40,182 nucleotides of DNA from Candidatus Rokuibacteriota bacterium (GTDB taxonomy: Bacteria; Methylomirabilota; Methylomirabilia; Rokubacteriales; CSP1-6). Each line of letters begins with the position of its first letter. The stretch's first letter is position 1. The DNA lies in contig QHRU01000144.1 of NCBI GenBank assembly GCA_003220225.1, positions 1 through 40,182 on the forward strand, given 5' to 3'. This document shows positions 1,720-35,337 of the stretch, piece after piece. A program made the translations under genes and the position numbers. The notes under the pieces were generated by a model. That model was not told where the DNA came from. It did not search any database and saw only the letters and a program-made list of their open reading frames with translations.

Positions 1720-3216
1720 TCACACGTCGCCGAGCCCGAACTCCTGCCAGCGCTCGCGCACGCGCGCCTCGTCCTCCGGCGCCGGCCGCACCGTCGGCGG
1801 GAAGCGCTCGCCGCCCCACTCGGCGCGGCGCTCGAACTTCCAGTTGCGCGTGGCGTCGAAGAGCACGCGGTTCCAGAGGCCGGTGCCGAGCTGCGCGACG
1901 TTGCGGTCCTCGAGCGGCGTGGACGGATCGATCGGCGAGCCGAAGCTTCCGGGGAAGATGACGATGCCGCCCTCGCCCGCGTTGACCCGATGCGCCACCG
2001 CCCAGTCGATCTGCTCGTACGACGACACGTCGATGTCGTCCTCGACCACCCACACGTGCTTGTAGCGGTACTGCGCGGCGGCGTTGCCCCAGAGCGCGGC
2101 GGCGATCTGCTTGGGCTGACCCTGATAATGCTTGGTGATCTTTACGCAGACGTTCACGCCGTTGGTGATCGGATGGACGTAGACGTCGCGGATGCCGGGA
2201 ATGCCCGCGCCGGTGAGGATGTTCCAGGCGATGGCGGCGCGCTGCACGGAGGACATCACGCTGTTCTCGCTGTACGAGCCCGGCAGCGTGCCCTCGAGGC
2301 AGCCCTGGAAGATCGGCTCGCGCCGGTGCGTGATGCAGGTGACCTTCATCGTCGGACGCGGCGTCGGCACGTCGGAGACGTAGCCGGTGAACTCGCCGAA
2401 CGGCCCCTCCGACTCGTAGGTGGCCGGATCGTCGGAGATGAAGCCCTCCAGCACGATCTCGGCGCCGGCCGGAACCTCGAGGTCCACCGTCTCGCACGGC
2501 ACCAGCTGGGCGGGCTCGCCGCGGTAGGCGCCCATGACGTCCCATTCGCAGACGCCGGTGGGGAGCGGCGAGCCGGCGAGGAAGGGCATGATCGGATCCC
2601 AGCCGATCACGCACGCCACGGGCATCGGCTGGCCCTTGCCGGCGTACTTCACGAAGTGCGCGCCCCAGTGCTGGCCACCCTTGATGAGCAGGAACGGCGT
2701 CGTGTTCTTCTTGCCGATCATGCCGCGGTAGATGCCGACGTTCATCACGTGCGTGTCGGGGTCGCGCGTGACGATGGCCGAGAACGTGTGGATGTAGCGC
2801 CCGCCCTCGCGGAAGTTCCACCTGGGGACGGGAAACTCGGTCTGGTCCACCGCGTCGCCACGAACGACGACCTCCTTCACGGGGCCCGTCGTCACCACGC
2901 GCGGCGGGATCGTCTCGCGGTTCTTCTTCATGACGTACTGGACCAGCTCGGCGTTGCCGACGTCCTTCGGAAACCCGAGCGCGAGCGCGAGCCGCCGCCG
3001 GTCGCCGAGGGCGTTGGTGAGGACCTTCGTGCAGCGCCCGCCGCGGTAGCCCTTGATGGTCTCGAAGAGCAGCGCGGGGCCCTTCTTTTCCAGGGCGCGG
3101 CGCGAGACGGCGCCGATCTCGCGGTCCCAGTCGACCTCGGCCCGGATGCGCCGCAGCTCGTTCTCCTTCTCGAGCAGCGCCAGCCATCCCCTGAGATCCA
3201 TGAAGCCCCTGGTCAT
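1720..3216 (-). CDS. UbiD-family prenylated-FMN decarboxylase
   Basis: The product has 498 residues, the usual size for this family. UbiD-type enzymes use prenylated FMN to decarboxylate, or carboxylate, aromatic and alpha,beta-unsaturated acids. The conserved active-site segment SEGPFGEFTGY carries the two acidic residues of the Glu-Arg-Glu network. Other family landmarks are TYESEGPFGE, VMSSVQRAAIAWNILT and the C-terminal IDWAVAHRVNAGEG. The start at 3216 is chosen for a GGAGG six bases upstream; an adjacent ATG lies at 3219. It is the last catabolic gene of the run, 25 bp after the LLM oxidoreductase. UbiX, which makes the cofactor, is not in the window. The substrate is unknown; ubiquinone synthesis is unlikely in this context. 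Confidence 0.9.
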   Translation of the reverse strand: MTRGFMDLRGWLALLEKENELRRIRAEVDWDREIGAVSRRALEKKGPALLFETIKGYRGGRCTKVLTNALGDRRRLALALGFPKDVGNAELVQYVMKKNRETIPPRVVTTGPVKEVVVRGDAVDQTEFPVPRWNFREGGRYIHTFSAIVTRDPDTHVMNVGIYRGMIGKKNTTPFLLIKGGQHWGAHFVKYAGKGQPMPVACVIGWDPIMPFLAGSPLPTGVCEWDVMGAYRGEPAQLVPCETVDLEVPAGAEIVLEGFISDDPATYESEGPFGEFTGYVSDVPTPRPTMKVTCITHRREPIFQGCLEGTLPGSYSENSVMSSVQRAAIAWNILTGAGIPGIRDVYVHPITNGVNVCVKITKHYQGQPKQIAAALWGNAAAQYRYKHVWVVEDDIDVSSYEQIDWAVAHRVNAGEGGIVIFPGSFGSPIDPSTPLEDRNVAQLGTGLWNRVLFDATRNWKFERRAEWGGERFPPTVRPAPEDEARVRERWQEFGLGDV

Positions 3217-3241
3217 CATCGGCCTCCGCCCACGGCCGGCA

Positions 3242-4249
3242 TCAGCGGCCTCCATAGGCCGGCACGACTTCGTTCAGGAAGCGCGCGAGCTGGCCGCGCT
3301 GGTCCCACGAGCTCAGGCGCAGCGCCATGTGGCCGAGCCCGGCGTCCGCATAGGCGCGCAACTGCCCCGCGCACGACTTCGGGTCGCCGGTGATGGTCCA
3401 CTGCTCGACGAATTTCGGAGTGAAGTTGGTCGAGTAATACGTGTCGAGGAATTTCTTGGTCTCCTCCAGCCCCGCCTGCCGGTCCTCGTTGACGTTGATG
3501 TTGTGGTAGAGGGCGCTGCCGAGCGCCGCCGGATCCCGGCCTTCCTCTTTCGCCATGGCGCGGATGCGCCCGAACTGCTCGGCGAACTCCGACGGGCTCA
3601 GCTTGTTGGTCATCCAGCCGTCGGCGTACTTCGCCACACGGCGGAACGAGCGCTCCACGATGGAGTCGGGCGCGCTGGCGCCCTGCTTCCACGTGAGCGC
3701 GGTGGGGTTGGAGGCGATCCAGATCGGCAGCGGCGTCTGCACGGGCTTGGGCTGGAGCGAGACGTTCTCGAATCGGTAGAAGGGGCTGGCGTGCGAGGCC
3801 TTGGTCTCGCCGAACAACTTGCGGAGGATGACGATGCCGTCTTCCAGCCGCCCGACACGGTCGGCCGAGGCGATGCCCATGACCGCATGCTCCGCCGCCT
3901 GCGCGGCGTTGGCGCTGTCGGGCCCGCCCAGGCAGACGGCCAGCCACGCGCGCCCTTCGCTGAGCACGTCGAGGCTCGCCCACTGCTGGGCGAAGAGAAC
4001 GGGATGGCGATGGACGAACGTCGCGAGGCACCCGACGCCCAGGCGCACGCGCCGCGTGACGGCGGCCAGCGCCGAGAGCAAGGCCACCGACTCCAGGCGC
4101 GGCTTGGCGAGCAGGCTGTCGCCGACCCAGACGGCGTCGAAGACGCCCGACGCCTCCGCCGTCGACGTCTGCTCGAGCAGGTCGCGCGCCTTGATCGCGC
4201 CCAGCACAACGGCGCGGTTGGCGAGAATCAGACCCAGCGTGTGCGCCAT
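3242..4249 (-). CDS. LLM class flavin-dependent oxidoreductase
   Basis: The product has 335 residues and is a luciferase-like TIM-barrel protein that would use FMN or F420. Family features are the N-terminal AEASGVFDAVWVGDSL, then TRRVRLGVGC, HPVLFAQQWASLDVLSEGR and the late segment TITGDPKSCAGQLRAYADAG, which matches the usual 'G(T/D)P' closing region. The start ATG at 4249 lies 2 bases after the crotonase stop; a GTG at 4333 would only add antisense-like sequence. Members oxidise or reduce varied carbon substrates, so the exact reaction cannot be read from sequence. Coupling to crotonase and UbiD genes points to one catabolic route. Confidence 0.88.
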   Translation of the reverse strand: MAHTLGLILANRAVVLGAIKARDLLEQTSTAEASGVFDAVWVGDSLLAKPRLESVALLSALAAVTRRVRLGVGCLATFVHRHPVLFAQQWASLDVLSEGRAWLAVCLGGPDSANAAQAAEHAVMGIASADRVGRLEDGIVILRKLFGETKASHASPFYRFENVSLQPKPVQTPLPIWIASNPTALTWKQGASAPDSIVERSFRRVAKYADGWMTNKLSPSEFAEQFGRIRAMAKEEGRDPAALGSALYHNINVNEDRQAGLEETKKFLDTYYSTNFTPKFVEQWTITGDPKSCAGQLRAYADAGLGHMALRLSSWDQRGQLARFLNEVVPAYGGR

Positions 4250-8087: not shown

Positions 8088-9401
8088 TCAGAAGGGAACC
8101 TCCGTCCGCTCGTCCTTCACCCGCCGCGCCTTGTGATCCCAGCGCGGCAGCGCGCCGGGCTCGGTGGCCTCCACCGTCACGCGGATGCCGAGCCCGACCC
8201 GCAGCGCGTCGCCGAGCTGGCCGCAGAGCCCTTCGCACTCGCTGCGCGAGAGCGCCGGTGACGGATCGACGCGCACGACGATGTCGTCCAGACCCTCGTG
8301 ACGCCGGAACACGATCTGGAACTCGTCCACGCCGGCGAACGGCCGCACCAGCTCCTCGACACGGCGCGGGTACACGATGATCCCGCGCACCTTCTTCATG
8401 TCGTCCAGCCGCGCCAGCACGCCGCCCTCAAGGGCCAGCAGCGTGCGCCCGCAGGGGCAGCGGCGATCGGCCAGCTGCACGACGTCGCGCGTGCGGTAGC
8501 GGATGAGCGGCATCGCCTTGCGATAGAGGCTCGTGAAGACCAGCTCGCCGCGCGCGCCCGGCTTCACGGGCTCCCCGGCCTCGTCGAGGACTTCCGCGAG
8601 GCAGTAGTCCTCGTTCACGTGCACGAGGCCGGCGCGCGCGTCGCACTCGAAGCCCCACGCGGCGATCTCGGTGAGTCCCGGCAGGTCGTACGCCCGCGCG
8701 CCGAACGCCGCCTCGATCTTCGCCTTCGTGGCTGGGATGGAGGCGCCCGGCTCGCCCGTGTGCCACGTGATCCGCACCTTCGTGTCCTTCGCCAGCTCGA
8801 TCCCCTTCCTCGCCGCCTGCTCGGCCAGGAAGAGCGCGTAGGACGGCGTGCAGCCGAGCACCGTGATCGGCCACGCCGTGAGCGCGTCGATGCGCTGCTC
8901 CGTCGAGAGCCCCCCCGCCGGGAACACGAGGCAGCCGAGGTCCTGGGCCGCGTAGAAGCCGGACCAGAAGCCGATCCATGGCCCATACGAGAACGCGGCC
9001 ATCACCATGTCCGCCTTGCGGACGCCGAACGCGTGCAGCGCGCGCGCGTACGAGTGATAGAAGCCGTGCCAGTCGTCTTTGGTGTCGAGGAAGGCGAGCG
9101 GCCGCCCGGTGGTCGCCGACGTCATGTGGATGCGCAGCACGTCCTCGAACGGCACCGCCAGGACGTCGCCCCACGGCGGCTTCGCCGCCTGGTTTTCCTT
9201 CAGCTCGTCCTTGGTCGTGAACGGCAGGCGTCGCAAGTCGTCGAGCGTCTTCACGCGCGGCGCGCCCTCGAGCTTGCGGCGATAGAACGGGCTGTGGGCC
9301 CGGGCGTGCGCGAGCTGCTCGCGCAGGCGCCTGGTCTGGAGCCGCCGCATGTCGGCGCGCGGGGCACGCTCGAGCCGAGGCTCGAGATAACGGGAGGCCA
9401 C
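8088..9401 (-). CDS. PaaK-like phenylacetate/aryl-CoA ligase
   Basis: The product has 437 residues, the normal size for the phenylacetate-CoA ligase branch of AMP-forming enzymes. The N-terminus has the typical helical lead (LREQLAHARAHSPFYRRKL). The phosphate-binding loop reads MTSATTGRPLAF, the A5 region is LPGLTEIAAWGFEC, and the later PLIRYRTRDVVQ and CPCGRTL segments match PaaK. The CPCG pair may bind metal. The GTG start at 9401 lies 3 bp after the CoxG-like gene stop, so the two are co-translated. It likely activates an aromatic acid; the substrate is not determined. It is a second CoA ligase in the same block. Confidence 0.9.
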   Translation of the reverse strand: MASRYLEPRLERAPRADMRRLQTRRLREQLAHARAHSPFYRRKLEGAPRVKTLDDLRRLPFTTKDELKENQAAKPPWGDVLAVPFEDVLRIHMTSATTGRPLAFLDTKDDWHGFYHSYARALHAFGVRKADMVMAAFSYGPWIGFWSGFYAAQDLGCLVFPAGGLSTEQRIDALTAWPITVLGCTPSYALFLAEQAARKGIELAKDTKVRITWHTGEPGASIPATKAKIEAAFGARAYDLPGLTEIAAWGFECDARAGLVHVNEDYCLAEVLDEAGEPVKPGARGELVFTSLYRKAMPLIRYRTRDVVQLADRRCPCGRTLLALEGGVLARLDDMKKVRGIIVYPRRVEELVRPFAGVDEFQIVFRRHEGLDDIVVRVDPSPALSRSECEGLCGQLGDALRVGLGIRVTVEATEPGALPRWDHKARRVKDERTEVPF

Positions 9402-9404
9402 CGC

Positions 9405-9851
9405 CTACTTCTTGTCCTGGAGTAGCTCGGACATCTTTCCGAAGAACTTGTCGGCCATCATCTTCGAGACGCCACCGAGCATGCGCTGGCCCACCGAAGC
9501 GATGAGACCGCCGACCTGGACGTCGGCGCTGTAGGCAACTCGCGTGCCGCCGCCTTCAGGGTCGCTCAGCGTGATGACGGTCTCGCCGCGGACGAACCCG
9601 GGGCCACCGCTGCCTTCCACCGCCAGCTTGTAAGACTCGGGTGGCTTCTGCTCGGTGATCTTGACCTTGCCCTCGAAGGTGCCCTTCACGCCGCCCACCC
9701 CGACTTTCATCGTGGCCTTGTACTCGTCGGGACCGACCGCCTCCAGCTTTTCGCAGCCGGGAATGGCTTTCTTCAACCGCGCGGGATCGAGGAACGCTTC
9801 CCAGACCTTCTGACGGGGCGCGGGAACGTCGTGCGAGCCTTCGAGCTTCAT
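9405..9851 (-). CDS. CoxG-like SRPBCC-family protein
   Basis: The product has 148 residues with a START/SRPBCC lipid-binding-type fold. It opens with MKLEGSHDVPAPRQKVWEAF, continues with IPGCEKLEAVGPDEYKATM and ends with a helix (LGGVSKMMADKFFGKMSELL), the layout of carbon monoxide dehydrogenase subunit G. AAGGAGA precedes the ATG. CoxG proteins often accompany molybdenum hydroxylases, but no coxMSL genes are visible here, so its partner is unknown. It is first in the catabolic run and faces a plus-strand lipoprotein gene, so the promoter should lie in 9852-9907. Confidence 0.88.
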   Translation of the reverse strand: MKLEGSHDVPAPRQKVWEAFLDPARLKKAIPGCEKLEAVGPDEYKATMKVGVGGVKGTFEGKVKITEQKPPESYKLAVEGSGGPGFVRGETVITLSDPEGGGTRVAYSADVQVGGLIASVGQRMLGGVSKMMADKFFGKMSELLQDKK

Positions 9852-9907
9852 GCCGCGAGTCTCCTTTGCACGATGTGACGGACGCGGGCTCGAATCGTAC
9901 CACGGGC

Positions 9908-10237
9908 ATGGCCGTTGCAGCCCTCGGCGGGGGGTCGAAACACACCCCGCAGGGAGGATCATCGGGGCTCTGCGCCCTCGCGCTGGCCGGCGGGATGACC
10001 ATCGCGTGCAATCGCACCGAGACCGACAAGGTCGGCACGGTGCCGGAGCGGACGAGTCCGTCCGCGTCTCCGAGCACGCCCAGCACGCCGCGCTCGTCGG
10101 ACACCACCTCGAGCTCGAGCTCCTCGACGACGACGACCGACATGACGACTCCGTCGGGCAGCGCGTCGGGCAGCGTCAGCGGTTCGGCGACGACCTCGCC
10201 GAGCAGCAGCAGCAGCTCCAACACCAGCACGAAGTAA
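9908..10237 (+). CDS. Putative Ser/Thr-rich small lipoprotein
   Basis: From the ATG at 9908 the product has 109 residues. A hydrophobic stretch LCALALAGGMTIAC ends in a lipobox-like TIAC, followed by NRTETDKVG and a long tail made almost only of Ser, Thr, Pro and Gly. This suits a short outer-membrane or surface lipoprotein with a flexible tail. An in-frame ATG at 9866 would lengthen the N-terminus. The start is uncertain because no strong ribosome site precedes either. The low-complexity tail could also be chance in GC-rich DNA, but the lipobox position and the convergent terminator after it favour a real gene. Confidence 0.5.
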   Translation: MAVAALGGGSKHTPQGGSSGLCALALAGGMTIACNRTETDKVGTVPERTSPSASPSTPSTPRSSDTTSSSSSSTTTTDMTTPSGSASGSVSGSATTSPSSSSSSNTSTK

Positions 10238-13060: not shown

Positions 13061-14770
13061 TCAAGGCGCGGCCGCCTCGCGCGTGAGCACTTCCAGGCTC
13101 TCGCGCAGGCGGCGATGGCCGTCGAGCAGCCCGAGGTATCGCGCCTCGCTCACGCCGCCCTTGGCGCGCATCAGCTGCCGCACACGTTCGCGCTCGCGCG
13201 CCGGCCAGCGCGCGAGATCGGGGATCAATCCGATCACCGTCGCCAGCCGCTCGAACGCCCGCCGCTCCGGCGGGGCCCATCGGCGCCAGCCGGTCGCGCC
13301 GAGCGCGCGCGCGACCCGCGCCACGGCGTCGGCGGTCGCCGCGCGGCGGTCGCCGTCGAAGCCGCGCGTGATCTGGCTCGTCACCAGCGCGGCCAGCCGG
13401 CTGCCGGTCACCGCGGTCGCGGGCGCGCCGCCGCCCAGCGTCAGGACGAGGTTCGAGCGGCCCAGGCGCCTGAGCGTGGCCAGCGGCGAGCGATAGTCCG
13501 GGTCGCGCGCGATCCGGGCGCGCTCGGCGTCGGCGAGCCGGCGAACCTCAGGGTCGGTCGGACGGAACCCGAGCTTCGCGTAGAAGTAGAACGCGCCCGT
13601 CCGGAGCCCCTCGGGGTTGGAGTCGTCGATCTGGGAGCGATCGACGACGATGGTGCGCATGCGGAACAGCTGGTAGTAGACGCGAAGGATCTGGCCGATG
13701 ACGAGCGCCGACTCGCCCTGGCGGAACGACTCGAAGATGTTGAGCGCGAACTCGAGGGTGCCGAGGCATCCCCAGCCTCCGCCGTAGCTGACGGGCACCC
13801 CATTCCTGAACGCCAGGTACGCGTAGTAGGCGTCGAGCGGAAGACGGTCGTCGGGCTGCAGCCCGACGAGCGCGATCCGGAGCCCACGGCCCGGGTCCGC
13901 CACGAGGACGTCGCCGGGGTTCGGGCGGGCGAAGGCGTGCAGCTCGCGCGCGCGTGTCGCCATCGAGGCGCGCGCCGCCTCGATGACGGCGTCGGCGAGA
14001 GGGCGATCCGCCCGGCGGGGCGCCGGCAGCGGCCGGGTGATCTCGCGCGCGACGTCGACGCCGCTGCGACGGAGCCCTTCGCGCTGGTGGAACACGGGCG
14101 CGCCGGGCAGACGCAGCAGCGTGCGCGAGGGGGCGGCGCCGCGCAAGCGCCAGGCGATCGGCAGCTCCAGCGACTCGAAGAGCCACTCGCGGGTGTCGTC
14201 GGACATGGGCGCCTCGCGGAAGAGCCGCAGCAGCACCTCGAGGTCGCTCGCCCGCCCTCCGCTCGCGAGACGCAGCCAGCGCCGCCAGCCGAGGCCGCCC
14301 TCGGTGAGGGCCTCCCCTTCCGTCGGCGTGACGAGCAGGCACAGCGCTTCCTCGAGCCGCTCGCCGCCGTCGAACTTCCGCCACGCGATCTTGACGTCGC
14401 CGGGAAAGCGCGTCGCCAGCCAGCGCGTCATCGGCAGGCCGAAGGGATAATCCAGGTCCGTTTCGGCGATGCCCGAGTCGTGCAGGCCGGCCCGCGCCGG
14501 CGGCCCCAGCCGGCGCACGCGCAGCGTGAACTCCCGCAGCGCCCGCTCGGCGGCATCCTGCACGGCCGCGTCGTCCGGGTAGGCCCGCACGAAACACAGG
14601 GTCTCGTGCAGCCGCTCGAGCGTCTTGGCCCTCGCGATCCGCACGGTGGACAGCCGCGCGAGCAGTCGCAGCTTCGCCAGGCGCGCCTCGGCGCCGAAGC
14701 GCGGCGCGCACGCGGCCAGCTCGTCGACGAGCACCCGGGCCTCGCCGCCGGGCGCGAGAAGCTCGCTCAC
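13061..14770 (-). CDS. Unknown 569-residue protein with GNAT-like central region
   Basis: The GTG start at 14770 overlaps the rsmD stop (GTGA). Residues about 320-460 look like a large acetyltransferase-type domain: VSYGGGWGCLGTLEFALNIF, ILRVYYQLFRMRTIVVDRSQ and NPEGLRTGAFYFYAKLGFRP, the last resembling the 'FYxKxGFRP' end of GNAT folds. The N-terminal 280 residues are helical and charged with no motif I know. The C-terminal 110 residues are also helical. Its place between rsmD and coaD suggests a housekeeping or RNA-related role, but that is only context. I do not know the substrate. Confidence 0.75.
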   Translation of the reverse strand: MSELLAPGGEARVLVDELAACAPRFGAEARLAKLRLLARLSTVRIARAKTLERLHETLCFVRAYPDDAAVQDAAERALREFTLRVRRLGPPARAGLHDSGIAETDLDYPFGLPMTRWLATRFPGDVKIAWRKFDGGERLEEALCLLVTPTEGEALTEGGLGWRRWLRLASGGRASDLEVLLRLFREAPMSDDTREWLFESLELPIAWRLRGAAPSRTLLRLPGAPVFHQREGLRRSGVDVAREITRPLPAPRRADRPLADAVIEAARASMATRARELHAFARPNPGDVLVADPGRGLRIALVGLQPDDRLPLDAYYAYLAFRNGVPVSYGGGWGCLGTLEFALNIFESFRQGESALVIGQILRVYYQLFRMRTIVVDRSQIDDSNPEGLRTGAFYFYAKLGFRPTDPEVRRLADAERARIARDPDYRSPLATLRRLGRSNLVLTLGGGAPATAVTGSRLAALVTSQITRGFDGDRRAATADAVARVARALGATGWRRWAPPERRAFERLATVIGLIPDLARWPARERERVRQLMRAKGGVSEARYLGLLDGHRRLRESLEVLTREAAAP

Positions 14771-15366
14771 ACGCACCCCGAACGCGTCGCAGGATCGTCG
14801 GGCCCGGCGCCGGGTGCGCCGTGACGGAAGAAGGTCAGCGTCGTCTCGCCGAACCGCCGCGTCCGGAACGCGGCCAGCGCGCCCGCCGACGCCGCCGGCG
14901 CGCGCTTGGTGAGGTGCTGCGCCACGACCACGCCGCCGGCGGCCAGGAGATCGGCGCCGCCGAGCGCGTCGAGCGTCGTGGCGACGTCATCGGTGTCGTA
15001 CGGCGGGTCGAGGAACACGACGTCGAACCTCTCGCCGGCACGCGCCAGCGCCGAGAGCGCGCGCGCCACCTCGTCGCGCACGACGCGCGCCGCCTTCTCC
15101 ACGCCCAGCGTCGCCACGTTGGCGCGCAGAGCCGCCACCGCGCGCGCGTCGCGCTCGACGAGCGTCGCGTGGGCGGCGCCGCGCGAGAGCGCCTCCAGCC
15201 CCACCCCGCCGGCGCCCGCGAAGAGGTCGAGCACGCGCGCTCCGGGCAGCCACGGCATGAGCGTGTCGAGCAGCGCGATGCGGACCTGATCGGCCGTCGG
15301 CCGCGTGCTGGCGCCGCGCGGCGTGGCCAGCCGGCGGCCCTTGTACGCACCCGCGATGATGCGCAC
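14767..15366 (-). CDS. rsmD: 16S rRNA (guanine966-N2)-methyltransferase
   Basis: The product has 199 residues. RsmD methylates G966 of 16S rRNA during 30S assembly. It opens with VRIIAGAYKGRRLATP, has the SAM-binding VLDLFAGAGGVGLEALSRGA, and the amino-methyltransferase motif FLDPPYD. The GTG at 15366 lies one base after the recG stop, so the pair is tightly coupled. The C-terminus has a short extra tail after TLTFFRHG. The next gene begins within its stop codon. Confidence 0.95.
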   Translation of the reverse strand: MRIIAGAYKGRRLATPRGASTRPTADQVRIALLDTLMPWLPGARVLDLFAGAGGVGLEALSRGAAHATLVERDARAVAALRANVATLGVEKAARVVRDEVARALSALARAGERFDVVFLDPPYDTDDVATTLDALGGADLLAAGGVVVAQHLTKRAPAASAGALAAFRTRRFGETTLTFFRHGAPGAGPDDPATRSGCV

Positions 15367-27173: not shown

Positions 27174-27686
27174 ATGCTCGCCTGGCTCCTCGACGCCATC
27201 GCCTCGGGCCTCAGCCGTCTGTACGGCCGTCCGCTCGGCCACGACGTCGCGATCGTCTTCCTCGTCGCCTTCGTCTTCACGATCATCGTCGCCGCGCGCT
27301 GGAGCCGCTTCGGATCGTCCGGTGTGACGGCCGCCGTGAGCGCGCCGCTCATGAGCCCGTCGGGCGCGATGCGCCTGCTGGCGACCGCCTCCGCGGTGCT
27401 GCGCGGCGCGTCCCCGGCGAAGGGGTCGGCGCTCGCGATCCTGGCGCTCGTCGTCGCGTGGCTGATCAACCTGTTCCCGCTCGCCGTCGGCGCGAGCCTC
27501 CGCGCGCAGGGCGAGATCGCCCGCGGCGTCATCTACGCGCTGCTCGGTTACCTGTGGACCTGGATGTTCCTCGGCCTGCTGCCGATCTGGTTGGTCATCG
27601 GCTGGTACGAGTGGGGCTTCTGGCAGAGCCTCGTCGGCAACGGCCATCGCCGCGATGCGCCGTCGATCGATCCCGGCGGACCGTGA
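27174..27686 (+). CDS. Small integral membrane protein of unknown function
   Basis: The product has 170 residues with an AAGAGG ribosome site before the ATG. There are three clear hydrophobic segments, about residues 25-41 (VAIVFLVAFVFTIIVAA), 86-107 (ALAILALVVAWLINLFPLA) and 118-145 (GVIYALLGYLWTWMFLGLL), the last long enough for a hairpin. The C-terminal tail is polar. I do not recognise the family. It is a lone plus-strand gene diverging from queA and converging on a decayed gene. Confidence 0.7.
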   Translation: MLAWLLDAIASGLSRLYGRPLGHDVAIVFLVAFVFTIIVAARWSRFGSSGVTAAVSAPLMSPSGAMRLLATASAVLRGASPAKGSALAILALVVAWLINLFPLAVGASLRAQGEIARGVIYALLGYLWTWMFLGLLPIWLVIGWYEWGFWQSLVGNGHRRDAPSIDPGGP

Positions 27687-27692
27687 GGGCAT

Positions 27693-28124
27693 CTACGCGG
27701 TGGTCGTCTTCCCCCGGCCGGTGAGCCACTTCCAGACGCCGCCGATCGCCGCGAAGCCGCCGAGCACGATCACCTTCCAGAACGCCGGCGCCGCCGGCCA
27801 CGAGCGCGGCCAGCCCGTACTCGGCGACCTTGTCCGTGCCCTTGACGAACTCCTCGTAGCGCTTGCCCGGCTTGAAGCTGATGCCGCCGATCAGGTCAGG
27901 CACGAACGCGCGATCGCGCTCGAAGGTCGCGCCGTCCCGTGACGAGGACGACGGAGATGAGCCCGTGCCGCCCGAGCACGCGGGTGTTGAAGTTGACGAC
28001 GTCGTGGTCCGCGCCGTCCGCCCGCCCGGAAAGCGCCCACACCAGCCGCTTGTTCAGCGGGTCGTAGTGCGGCTTCTCCACCCAGCCGATCTGGTCGACG
28101 ACGATCCACTTCTGCGACGCGCAC
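27693..28124 (-). pseudogene. Decayed DUF2167-type membrane-anchored protein
   Basis: Three frames must be joined to read a DUF2167-like C-terminal region: DQIGWVEKPHYDPLNKRLVW and NFNTRVLGRHGLISVVLVTG, then PDLIGGISFKPGKRYEEF with TDKVAEYGLAALVAGG, then VIVLGGFAAIGGVWKW with a stop at 27693. One shift lies near 27942 (after VLVTG) and one near 27786. The N-terminal half of a normal protein of about 300 residues is missing. The neighbouring genes are intact, so this looks like real decay more than poor sequence, though errors cannot be excluded. Confidence 0.65.
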
Positions 28125-32858: not shown

Positions 32859-33845
32859 TTATCCTCTTTCGTTCGAGAGTGCGGCCTTCAGCCGCTTCAC
32901 CCGGTCCAGGCGCCGCTCGCGGCGAACCAGCGCGCCCTGCCAGCGCCGCCGCTCGCCCTCGGTGCGCGGCGTGAAGGGCCGGCACGCCTGCGGTCGCAGG
33001 TCACCGCCGAGATGCACGTAGGTCAGGTACGCGGTGCAGGCGTGGCGGACCTCGCCACTCCACGGCTGCTCGGCCAGGACCTTGACGCCGACCTCCAGCG
33101 ATGACGAGCCCACGTGGTTGAGCCCCGCCTTGAACGTCAGCACCTCGTGCGTGTAGATCGGGGTGTAGAAGTCCATCGCATCCAGGCACGCGGTCATCAC
33201 CAGGCCCTTGCAGTACCGCATCGACAGGATCCCGCCCGCCTCGTCCAGCTCCATGAGCATCTTGCCGGGGAACATCATGTTGCCGAAGAGCGCGTCCTCC
33301 GGCAACACGGACCGCGCCGACTCGAAGCGCCACTGGAACTCCTCGTTGGCGGCGGTGTCGACGTCCTTCACCCGCGCCGCCTTCTCCGCGAAGCGCGCGA
33401 GACGCTGCTGGCGGCGCGCCTGCGCGGCCTCCACCCGCGCCGCCTCGGCGGCGTCACGGGGCTCGATCCTGACGCCGACCGGCCGCGGCCGCTCGTGCGC
33501 ATCGACGCTGACGAAGACGAGGTGCGAGTTCAGCGTGACCGCACGCTCGCCGGTGTCGACGTTCTCCGCCCACACCCGCACGCCGACTTCCAGCGACGAG
33601 GTGCCGATGTACTCCACGCGCGCGCGGAGGATCGCGATCTCGCCCACCTTCACGGGATGCAGGAAGTCGATGTCGTCCATGGCGCCGAGGAGGACGGTGC
33701 CCCTGGCCACGCGCGCGGCGGCCATGGTGCCGGCCTGGGTGATCCACTGCATCATGCGGCCGCCATGGATCTGCCCCGGCGCGCCCGCGTGCTCCGGGAA
33801 CACCCACTGGATCGTCTCGGTCACGGTGTCGGCGATCGACGGCAT
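32859..33845 (-). CDS. Acyl-CoA thioesterase with two hotdog domains
   Basis: The product has 328 residues. Two similar hotdog units are visible: the first has GQIHGGRMMQWITQAGTMAA, GAMDDIDFLHPVKVGE and VEYIGTSSLEVGVRVW; the second has MMFPGKMLMELDEAGGILSM, DAMDFYTPIYTHEVLTF and LNHVGSSSLEVGVKVL. The repeated 'SSLEVGV' shows internal duplication. Such enzymes hydrolyse acyl-CoA to free acid and CoA. A helical linker (AARVEAAQARRQQRL) joins the units. The ATG at 33845 is chosen; a GTG two codons before is possible. A hairpin lies just upstream in the leader. Confidence 0.9.
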   Translation of the reverse strand: MPSIADTVTETIQWVFPEHAGAPGQIHGGRMMQWITQAGTMAAARVARGTVLLGAMDDIDFLHPVKVGEIAILRARVEYIGTSSLEVGVRVWAENVDTGERAVTLNSHLVFVSVDAHERPRPVGVRIEPRDAAEAARVEAAQARRQQRLARFAEKAARVKDVDTAANEEFQWRFESARSVLPEDALFGNMMFPGKMLMELDEAGGILSMRYCKGLVMTACLDAMDFYTPIYTHEVLTFKAGLNHVGSSSLEVGVKVLAEQPWSGEVRHACTAYLTYVHLGGDLRPQACRPFTPRTEGERRRWQGALVRRERRLDRVKRLKAALSNERG

Positions 33846-33854
33846 AAACACGAG

Positions 33855-33950: not shown

Positions 33951-34141
33951 TCAGGAGCCGGGCTGGGCGGGGCGGGCGAGGTCGGCGGGCGCACGTAGCA
34001 TGCGCTCGCCAGCCAGCCGCACGCGCGCGCTGTCCTCGCCGTCGCCGTGGCGCGCGGCGGCGGTCTCGGCGATGCGCAGCGCCAGCACGGCCGCGTCGCG
34101 GTCGCCCAGGCGCGCGAAGCCCTCGGCGGCGCGCAGCGCGC
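33951..34141 (-). pseudogene. C-terminal half of an inversion-split gene
   Basis: On the minus strand one frame reads ALRAAEGFARLGDRDAAVLA, then LRIAETAAARHGDGEDSARV, and ends at a TGA at 33951-33953. It has no start codon and no N-terminus. The helical 'RAAEGFARLGDRDxA' text looks like the natural continuation of the plus-strand fragment that starts next to it. I recall a family of uncharacterised helical proteins with the two parts in series. The two halves now point in opposite directions, which a local inversion would explain. Confidence 0.5.
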
Positions 34142-34430
34142 CATGTCGGGCATCGCCATCGCCCGTAGCGGCTCGGCAGACACGCGTGACCCGGCCCGGC
34201 TCGCCGCGCTGGCCGCCATGGACGAGACCCTGGCGCGTCAGGACCTCGCGGCCGCCGTGCAGGCCTGGCGCCAGGCCCGCGAGCTCGCCCTGCGCTCGCG
34301 AGGCTGGCGCGGTCCCGCCGAGGCGGCCGACGCCGAGCTGAGGCTGGCCGTCGCCGCGGATCGCCTGCGCGAGTCCAAGCCGACCGCGCACGAGCTGTTC
34401 CTCGTCACGCTCTTCCGCGCCCGGGCAACC
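34142..34430 (+). pseudogene. N-terminal half of the same gene, inverted
   Basis: On the plus strand one frame reads RLAALAAMDETLARQDLAAA, VQAWRQARELALRSRGW, and then AHELFLVTLFRARA before losing its coding look. Short inverted repeats GGCATCG (34149-34155) and CGATGCC (34432-34438) flank the segment and could have guided the inversion. Turning this segment round in place brings it in line with the minus-strand C-terminal piece, though one base or a small indel is needed to keep frame. Function of the original protein is unknown. Confidence 0.5.
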
Positions 34431-34500
34431 CCGATGCCAGACCCCGGCGCCGCGCCGTTTGCCCGAGCTCGAAGCAGCGGACGGGCAACACGCCGCCGTA

Positions 34501-35337
34501 TCACGCACGCAGCCGCGGGTCGAGCAGGTCGCGCAGCCCGTCACCGAGCAGGTTGACGCCAAGTACGGCCAGGAGGAGGGCCGCCCCGGGGAAGACGGCC
34601 ACCCAGGGGGCGGTCGCGAGGAACGTCTGGCCGTCGGCGAGCATCGCCCCCCACGAGATCGTCGGCGACTGCGCGCCGAGACCGAGGAAGGAGAGCCCGG
34701 CCTCGGCCACCATGTTGCCGCCGACGCCGATCGTCGCCGCCACGAGCAGCGGGGCGACGGCGTTCGGCAGAAGGTGACGGAGCATGATCGCGCGGTGGCC
34801 GCCGCCGAGCGCCCGGGCCGCCTGCACGAAGTCGCGCGCCTTGAGCGACAGCACCTCGCCGCGCACCACGCGCGCGATCGTCGTCCAGCCGAGCGCCACG
34901 AGCACGATGAACACCTTGTCGAGGCCCGGGCGCTCGAAGACCGCGATGAGACCGATGGCGAGCACGAGCGACGGAAACGCCATCACGACGTCGGTCACGC
35001 GCATCAGCGCCGCGTCCACGGGACCGCCGAAGTAGCCCGCGAGCAGCCCGATCGCACACCCCAGGACGACGACGAGCGTCTCGACGCCGACGCCGACGGC
35101 GAGCGACGCGCGCCCGCCCCACAGCACGCGGGAGAGCACGTCGCGGCCGAGGGCGTCCGTGCCGAGCGGGTGGCTGACGCTGGGCCCCTCCAGGGTGGCG
35201 CCCCCGCCGCCGGCCACCGCGTGCGGGTCCTCGGGGGCCAGCACGGGCGCGAGCAGCGAGGCCGCCGCGAAGAGCGCGACGAGCGCGGCGCCCGCGAGGA
35301 AGCCGCGATGACGCAGCGGCCTAGGCGCGGGCGGCAT
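34501..35337 (-). CDS. ABC transporter permease (DppC/OppC type)
   Basis: The product has 278 residues and is an inner-membrane subunit of a peptide or nickel-type importer. It has a first helix (GFLAGAALVALFAAASLLAP), the extracellular HPLGTDALGRDVLSRVLWGG typical of DppC, and the ATPase-contact EAA loop QAARALGGGHRAIMLRHLLP. Five further helices follow. The C-terminus GDGLRDLLDPRLRA is also typical. It overlaps the upstream permease gene by 17 bp. No ATPase gene follows; the next sequence is a broken gene. Confidence 0.95.
   Translation of the reverse strand: MPPAPRPLRHRGFLAGAALVALFAAASLLAPVLAPEDPHAVAGGGGATLEGPSVSHPLGTDALGRDVLSRVLWGGRASLAVGVGVETLVVVLGCAIGLLAGYFGGPVDAALMRVTDVVMAFPSLVLAIGLIAVFERPGLDKVFIVLVALGWTTIARVVRGEVLSLKARDFVQAARALGGGHRAIMLRHLLPNAVAPLLVAATIGVGGNMVAEAGLSFLGLGAQSPTISWGAMLADGQTFLATAPWVAVFPGAALLLAVLGVNLLGDGLRDLLDPRLRA

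Follow-up and report, generated by a model that had tools for sequence, protein, structure and literature searches.

Opposed halves of one gene in a Candidatus Rokuibacteriota assembly: a local inversion with loss at both ends and a probable pseudogene

The split gene and its intact counterparts

The DNA analyzed here (the window, 40,182 nucleotides) makes up an entire contig, C31, of a 6.03-Mb Candidatus Rokuibacteriota genome that is assembled in 167 contigs and 97.32% complete. Two minus-strand genes frame the locus—a 4HBT thioesterase gene downstream (32859..33851; Pfam PF03061) and an ABC transporter permease gene upstream (BPD_transp_1, 34501..35337; PF00528)—and between them lie two coding pieces on opposite strands, both found where an earlier note on this DNA had placed them. 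The C half (33951..34142, minus strand) retains the ancestral orientation, is colinear with the downstream flank, and forms the end of the protein (GALRAAEGFARLGDRDAA...AQPGS, beginning GALRAAEGF), terminated by a stop codon. The adjoining segment (34143..34423, plus strand) holds the N half together with the code for the end of a putative signal peptide, and its translation, AALAAMDETLARQDL...LFRARA, is an inner part of the protein. Neither half contains a stop or a frameshift. Beyond the inverted segment come a sigma-54-like site (TGGCATCGGGGTTGCC; 34424..34439, minus strand) and an intergenic remnant (34440..34500, minus strand) that is about 50 bp shorter than its G002 counterpart, with alignment and gap placement approximate there.

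Two metagenome-assembled genomes of the same genus, G001 and G002, each carry an intact gene at this locus (183 amino acids in G002, 182 in G001), flanked by the same permease and thioesterase genes, and in both the two window pieces stand in series, on one strand and in one open frame. DNA identity of the C half is 83.6% to G002 and 73.1% to G001. Alignment places the inverted span at 34139-34423 against G002 and at 34147-34426 against G001, with both flanks colinear in each case; relative to both relatives, the inverted piece is about 281 bp (34143-34423). The opposed-halves pattern visible in the raw sequence therefore reflects a rearrangement against two relatives, and because the gene is whole in two same-genus genomes with the same neighborhood, the simplest view is that the inversion is derived. 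The earlier note's central claim—one gene split into opposed halves by a local inversion—thus holds, and the search it had proposed for homologues joining both segments recovered intact genes. That two unrelated genes simply abut by chance is contradicted by the serial, single-frame arrangement in G001 and G002; we found no point in favor of this reading, consider its probability negligible, and treat it as ruled out. A scan of a contig database matched the gene in records QHSB01000247 (AR40) and QHSO01000031 (AR29), whose lengths are those of G002:C93 and G001:C308, and in no further strain of the species.

More distant relatives show the same arrangement. The N piece matched 26 genomes besides its own among the 60 searched, relatives at about 40% identity being detected at E about 1e-9. 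Local tblastn of the best loci (L010-L035; hits listed up to E 1) found both pieces on one strand in 21 of 26, the C piece following the N piece by 18-24 nt (weakest counted C hit, E 0.038 in L024). Among the five loci lacking a counted pair, L022 stops at a contig end and L014 has no in-place C hit; L029 also has none by local tblastn, with the C piece found in series by a separate C-piece search, and in L032 the C hit is in place and the N piece was missed. That C-piece search matched 15 of 38 genomes, the source genome included. At L035 (G056:C86, 1046-1593), in a more distant genome of another family of the same class, a weak N match contains an internal stop, and a weak C-like hit (E 0.002) lies 339 nt away on the opposite strand; these opposed hits may be chance or another broken copy. 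Several genomes have at least two N-piece matches on one contig, pointing to tandem copies of the helical family. In the source genome, a search for a second copy of the N piece found none at E <= 0.001, and the loss of the gene is therefore probably not covered by a close copy.

The N-terminus of the intact protein looks like a signal peptide, judging from its residues. Neither intact relative matched any Pfam family at E <= 1, TPR profiles included, and an NCBIfam gspI match for the G002 protein (E 0.039; 14.5 bits against a cut-off of 44.35) was not accepted. A structural model of the G002 protein, built from two sequences, is all helical (mean pLDDT 69, pTM 0.48); in a fold search it gave no match at E <= 0.001, its weak matches being designed helical repeats and TPR proteins. 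The all-helical model and these weak matches resemble TPR-like helical repeat proteins, whereas the lack of Pfam and fold matches at these thresholds, and the pLDDT of 69, set it apart from them.

Junctions, lost sequence, and the upstream site

The flipped piece corresponds to G002 9798-10082, and the C-side flank begins at G002 10102. At the left junction (34139..34142), 4 bp (CGCC) could belong to either the flank or the inverted piece, as seen from overlapping alignments to G002 and from the base-level alignment. Against G002, about 96 bp are absent between the promoter-like site and the flipped piece, comprising the leader, the start codon, and about 19 codons, and about 19 bp are absent in mid-gene, on the C-terminal side of the flipped piece; relative to G001, too, the window lacks the leader, the start codon, and most of the signal peptide. 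The inversion is not clean, because flanking sequence is missing on both sides, which corrects the earlier note's picture of a segment inverted in place. Changes unique to the window genome fall at codon positions 1, 2, and 3 in 17, 9, and 20 cases (G002: 4, 9, and 22; G001: 16, 22, and 38), counts that take in the five non-homologous codons at the end of the N half; the slight shift is at most a hint of relaxed selection.

The site TGGCATCGGGGTTGCC has the -24/-12 form of sigma-54 promoters (TGGCA...TTGC, with GG and GC at fixed spacing). Equivalent sites with the same spacing, TGGCATCGCGGTTGCC in G001 and TGGCATCGACCTTGCC in G002, lie upstream of the start codon, the G002 site beginning 56 nt before it, and GG and GC at fixed spacing occur in all three genomes. 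In the window, the site keeps its old orientation and now faces the antisense of the flipped N half. Across 26 upstream regions of the family (L010-L034 plus L038, a second copy that was kept and scored 6, with L035 and the second copies L036 and L037 left out), sites scoring >= 9 were found at 12, G001 and G002 among them; 100 shuffles gave 2.17 on average and at most 5, and the reverse strand gave 2. The source genome has one Sigma54_DBD (RpoN) match; a literature search for Rokubacteria with sigma-54 or RpoN, under that phylum spelling, returned no paper. The locus points to a family of small helical, probably secreted proteins, many of whose members have a sigma-54-like site upstream. The ancestral gene was probably sigma-54-promoted, and the lost product may have been a binding protein, secreted or anchored in the membrane, whose expression sigma-54 controlled.

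A second inversion and the correctness of the assembly

A second local inversion, 6 kb from the first, occupies 27641-28089. Relative to G001, it has turned round the end of a DUF2167 gene together with the beginning of the gene that follows, and it affects the DUF2167 gene and both of its neighbors (the assignment comes from a Pfam match of the G001 protein). Here, 521 bp and 254 bp of G001 sequence are missing, one on each side, and what remains of the gene is decayed, with a net +1 shift and a 41-bp gap. The G002 contig lacks most of this stretch.

Counting opposite-strand matches of >= 80 bp at E <= 1e-8, thresholds under which fast-evolving or shorter inverted pieces would be missed, the window and G001 differ by two inversions in 31,485 aligned bases. 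Elsewhere, contigs C113 and C150 of the same genome yielded no further accepted internal local inversion over 181,670 bases aligned to G001 or over 46,105 bases aligned to G002, where some chains overlap, and none was found between G002 and G001 in 64,875 aligned bases. One internal opposite-strand match of 127 bp in the control contigs was interpreted as a paralogue; on the target side it overlaps the colinear chain. Given that the window was chosen for one inversion and that the sample is small, we make no claim of an unusual inversion density. It is doubtful, in our estimation, that this lineage repeatedly makes small inversions with end loss through error-prone Ku-type joining, the two scars forming a cluster or burst; if true, soil Rokuibacteriota would be losing genes by a mutational path that is rarely sought, since it goes unseen in gene annotation.

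Other differences were seen in the course of these comparisons. One end of a G001 contig (L097, G001:C290, 11393-12563) is inverted relative to 143.8-146.2 kb of C113 in the window genome, with one flank visible. Within the window, 13316-14914 (about 1.6 kb) has no listed match (>= 60 bases, E <= 1e-5) in the colinear G001 contig, and may be an insertion in the window genome or a loss in G001. Four short stretches of about 70-140 bp in L067 (G000:C113:60001-80000; 3158-3251, 8373-8458, 9364-9503, and 13831-13928) have matches at dozens of sites in G001 and G002, frequently with 85-99% identity and some of them in tandem; they represent an abundant dispersed short repeat, which also occurs at G001:C308:5305-5379.

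Both scars bear on whether the inverted piece exists in the organism or arose in assembly, a short contig having been scaffolded the wrong way round with gap sequence lost while the true genome holds an intact gene. Such a misplacement would itself give an inverted piece with losses on both sides, the genome is split into 167 contigs, one of which is the entire window, and two such places occur within this one 40-kb contig. Against it, the right join passes continuously from the conserved promoter-like site into the flipped piece without Ns, the comparisons of C113 and C150 with G001 and G002 yielded no other accepted inversion, and the net +1 shift and 41-bp gap of the second scar are unexplained by misplacement alone. 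We therefore regard an assembly artefact as unlikely and infer that the assembly is correct here.

Probable loss of the gene, its possible maker, and known systems

A dead gene and a switch can be told apart by whether a flip restores the start, the frame, and the sites. In a switchable segment, a recombinase would flip the piece and turn the gene on or off, and the earlier note had left this choice open, citing short repeats, GGCATCG/CGATGCC, at the segment ends and an inversion of about 289 bp that would align the halves. The exact 7-bp arms are indeed present near the ends, within an extended pair of 21 nt at 76%, and flipping 34150-34438 (289 bp) does bring both halves into one frame. It is, however, the sole success among six flips tried: four flips at the outer or inner edges of the 7-bp or the 21-nt pair, and a fifth at the homology breakpoints, all leave the halves in different frames. 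The left arm lies within the code for the signal-peptide end and the right arm, CGATGCC, within the promoter-like site on the minus strand; of 1990 pairs of 30-bp zones set 285 bp apart, 182 hold a comparable exact 7-bp pair, and GGCATCG itself is found 26 times in the window against 15.67 expected. On these counts the pair is within chance and does not look like a recombination site. The original start codon, with the leader and most of the signal peptide, is also gone, and the recombinase search, which covered two families, found no resolvase (PF00239) in the whole genome and 12 phage-integrase (PF00589) matches, none of them on C31. A switch is accordingly extremely improbable, and we reject switching by site-specific recombination; between the two options of the earlier note, a fixed disruption is favored.

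With the front half flipped and the start and a short middle piece missing, the locus reads as ordinary gene loss and not as an on/off switch. In this assembly the halves are opposed, the ancestral order is kept in two relatives, and stretches are missing at the joins; we consider it likely, with good though not full confidence, that this is a fixed pseudogene left by a flip of about 281 bp with end loss, presumably in a single event. The second scar, with loss on both flanks and frameshifts of the sort a decaying gene acquires, speaks for this reading; the absence of any stop or frameshift within the two halves speaks against it. The ancestor would have carried a gene, probably sigma-54-promoted, for a secreted or membrane-anchored helical protein of about 183 aa. 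Two breaks would have freed a piece of about 281 bp that was rejoined upside down, with the loss at joining of about 96 bp on the promoter side (as measured on G002) and about 19 bp on the C-terminal side.

Breakage followed by Ku-type end joining, the joins sharing a few bases, is a plausible maker of this product. Two Ku matches and one LigD_N match were found in the genome, the latter within an open frame of only 223 aa (the LigD search covered the LigD_N domain only). At the junctions of the two inversions, about 3-5 bases could belong to either partner, which is suggestive only, because the partners are read from diverged relatives. Alternatively, within the same pseudogene reading, a replication fork could have switched to the opposite strand, run about 281 bases in reverse, and returned further along, giving the same product without a double-strand break. 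The order of the points, the loss on both sides, and the short shared bases at the joins would all fit a four-point template switch; nothing specific speaks against it, but end joining explains the same product, and we hold the template switch as a tentative candidate for the maker. A search for papers on template switching with inversion and quasipalindromes in bacterial genomes found none. Between the two mechanisms, the balance is about even.

Among known systems, invertons offer a partial likeness, in that a short segment is flipped inside a gene. They are described as enzyme-mediated and reversible, with inverted repeats of 10-40 nt (PMC11892184), whereas the exact repeat here is 7 bp. 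The locus differs further in its missing start, in halves that stay out of frame after flips at the repeat ends, and in having no candidate from the two recombinase families on the contig; the invertase of an inverton often lies nearby. Pseudogenes formed by a small inversion with flanking deletions, of the end-joining or template-switch type, are a known class, and it is this class that the locus resembles: a broken gene in which a piece lies inverted between colinear flanks, with sequence missing at either side and a few bases shared at the joins, alongside an intact colinear homologue in both G001 and G002. We see no difference in principle from such pseudogenes; here, the joins and the retained promoter-like site can be read against two relatives.
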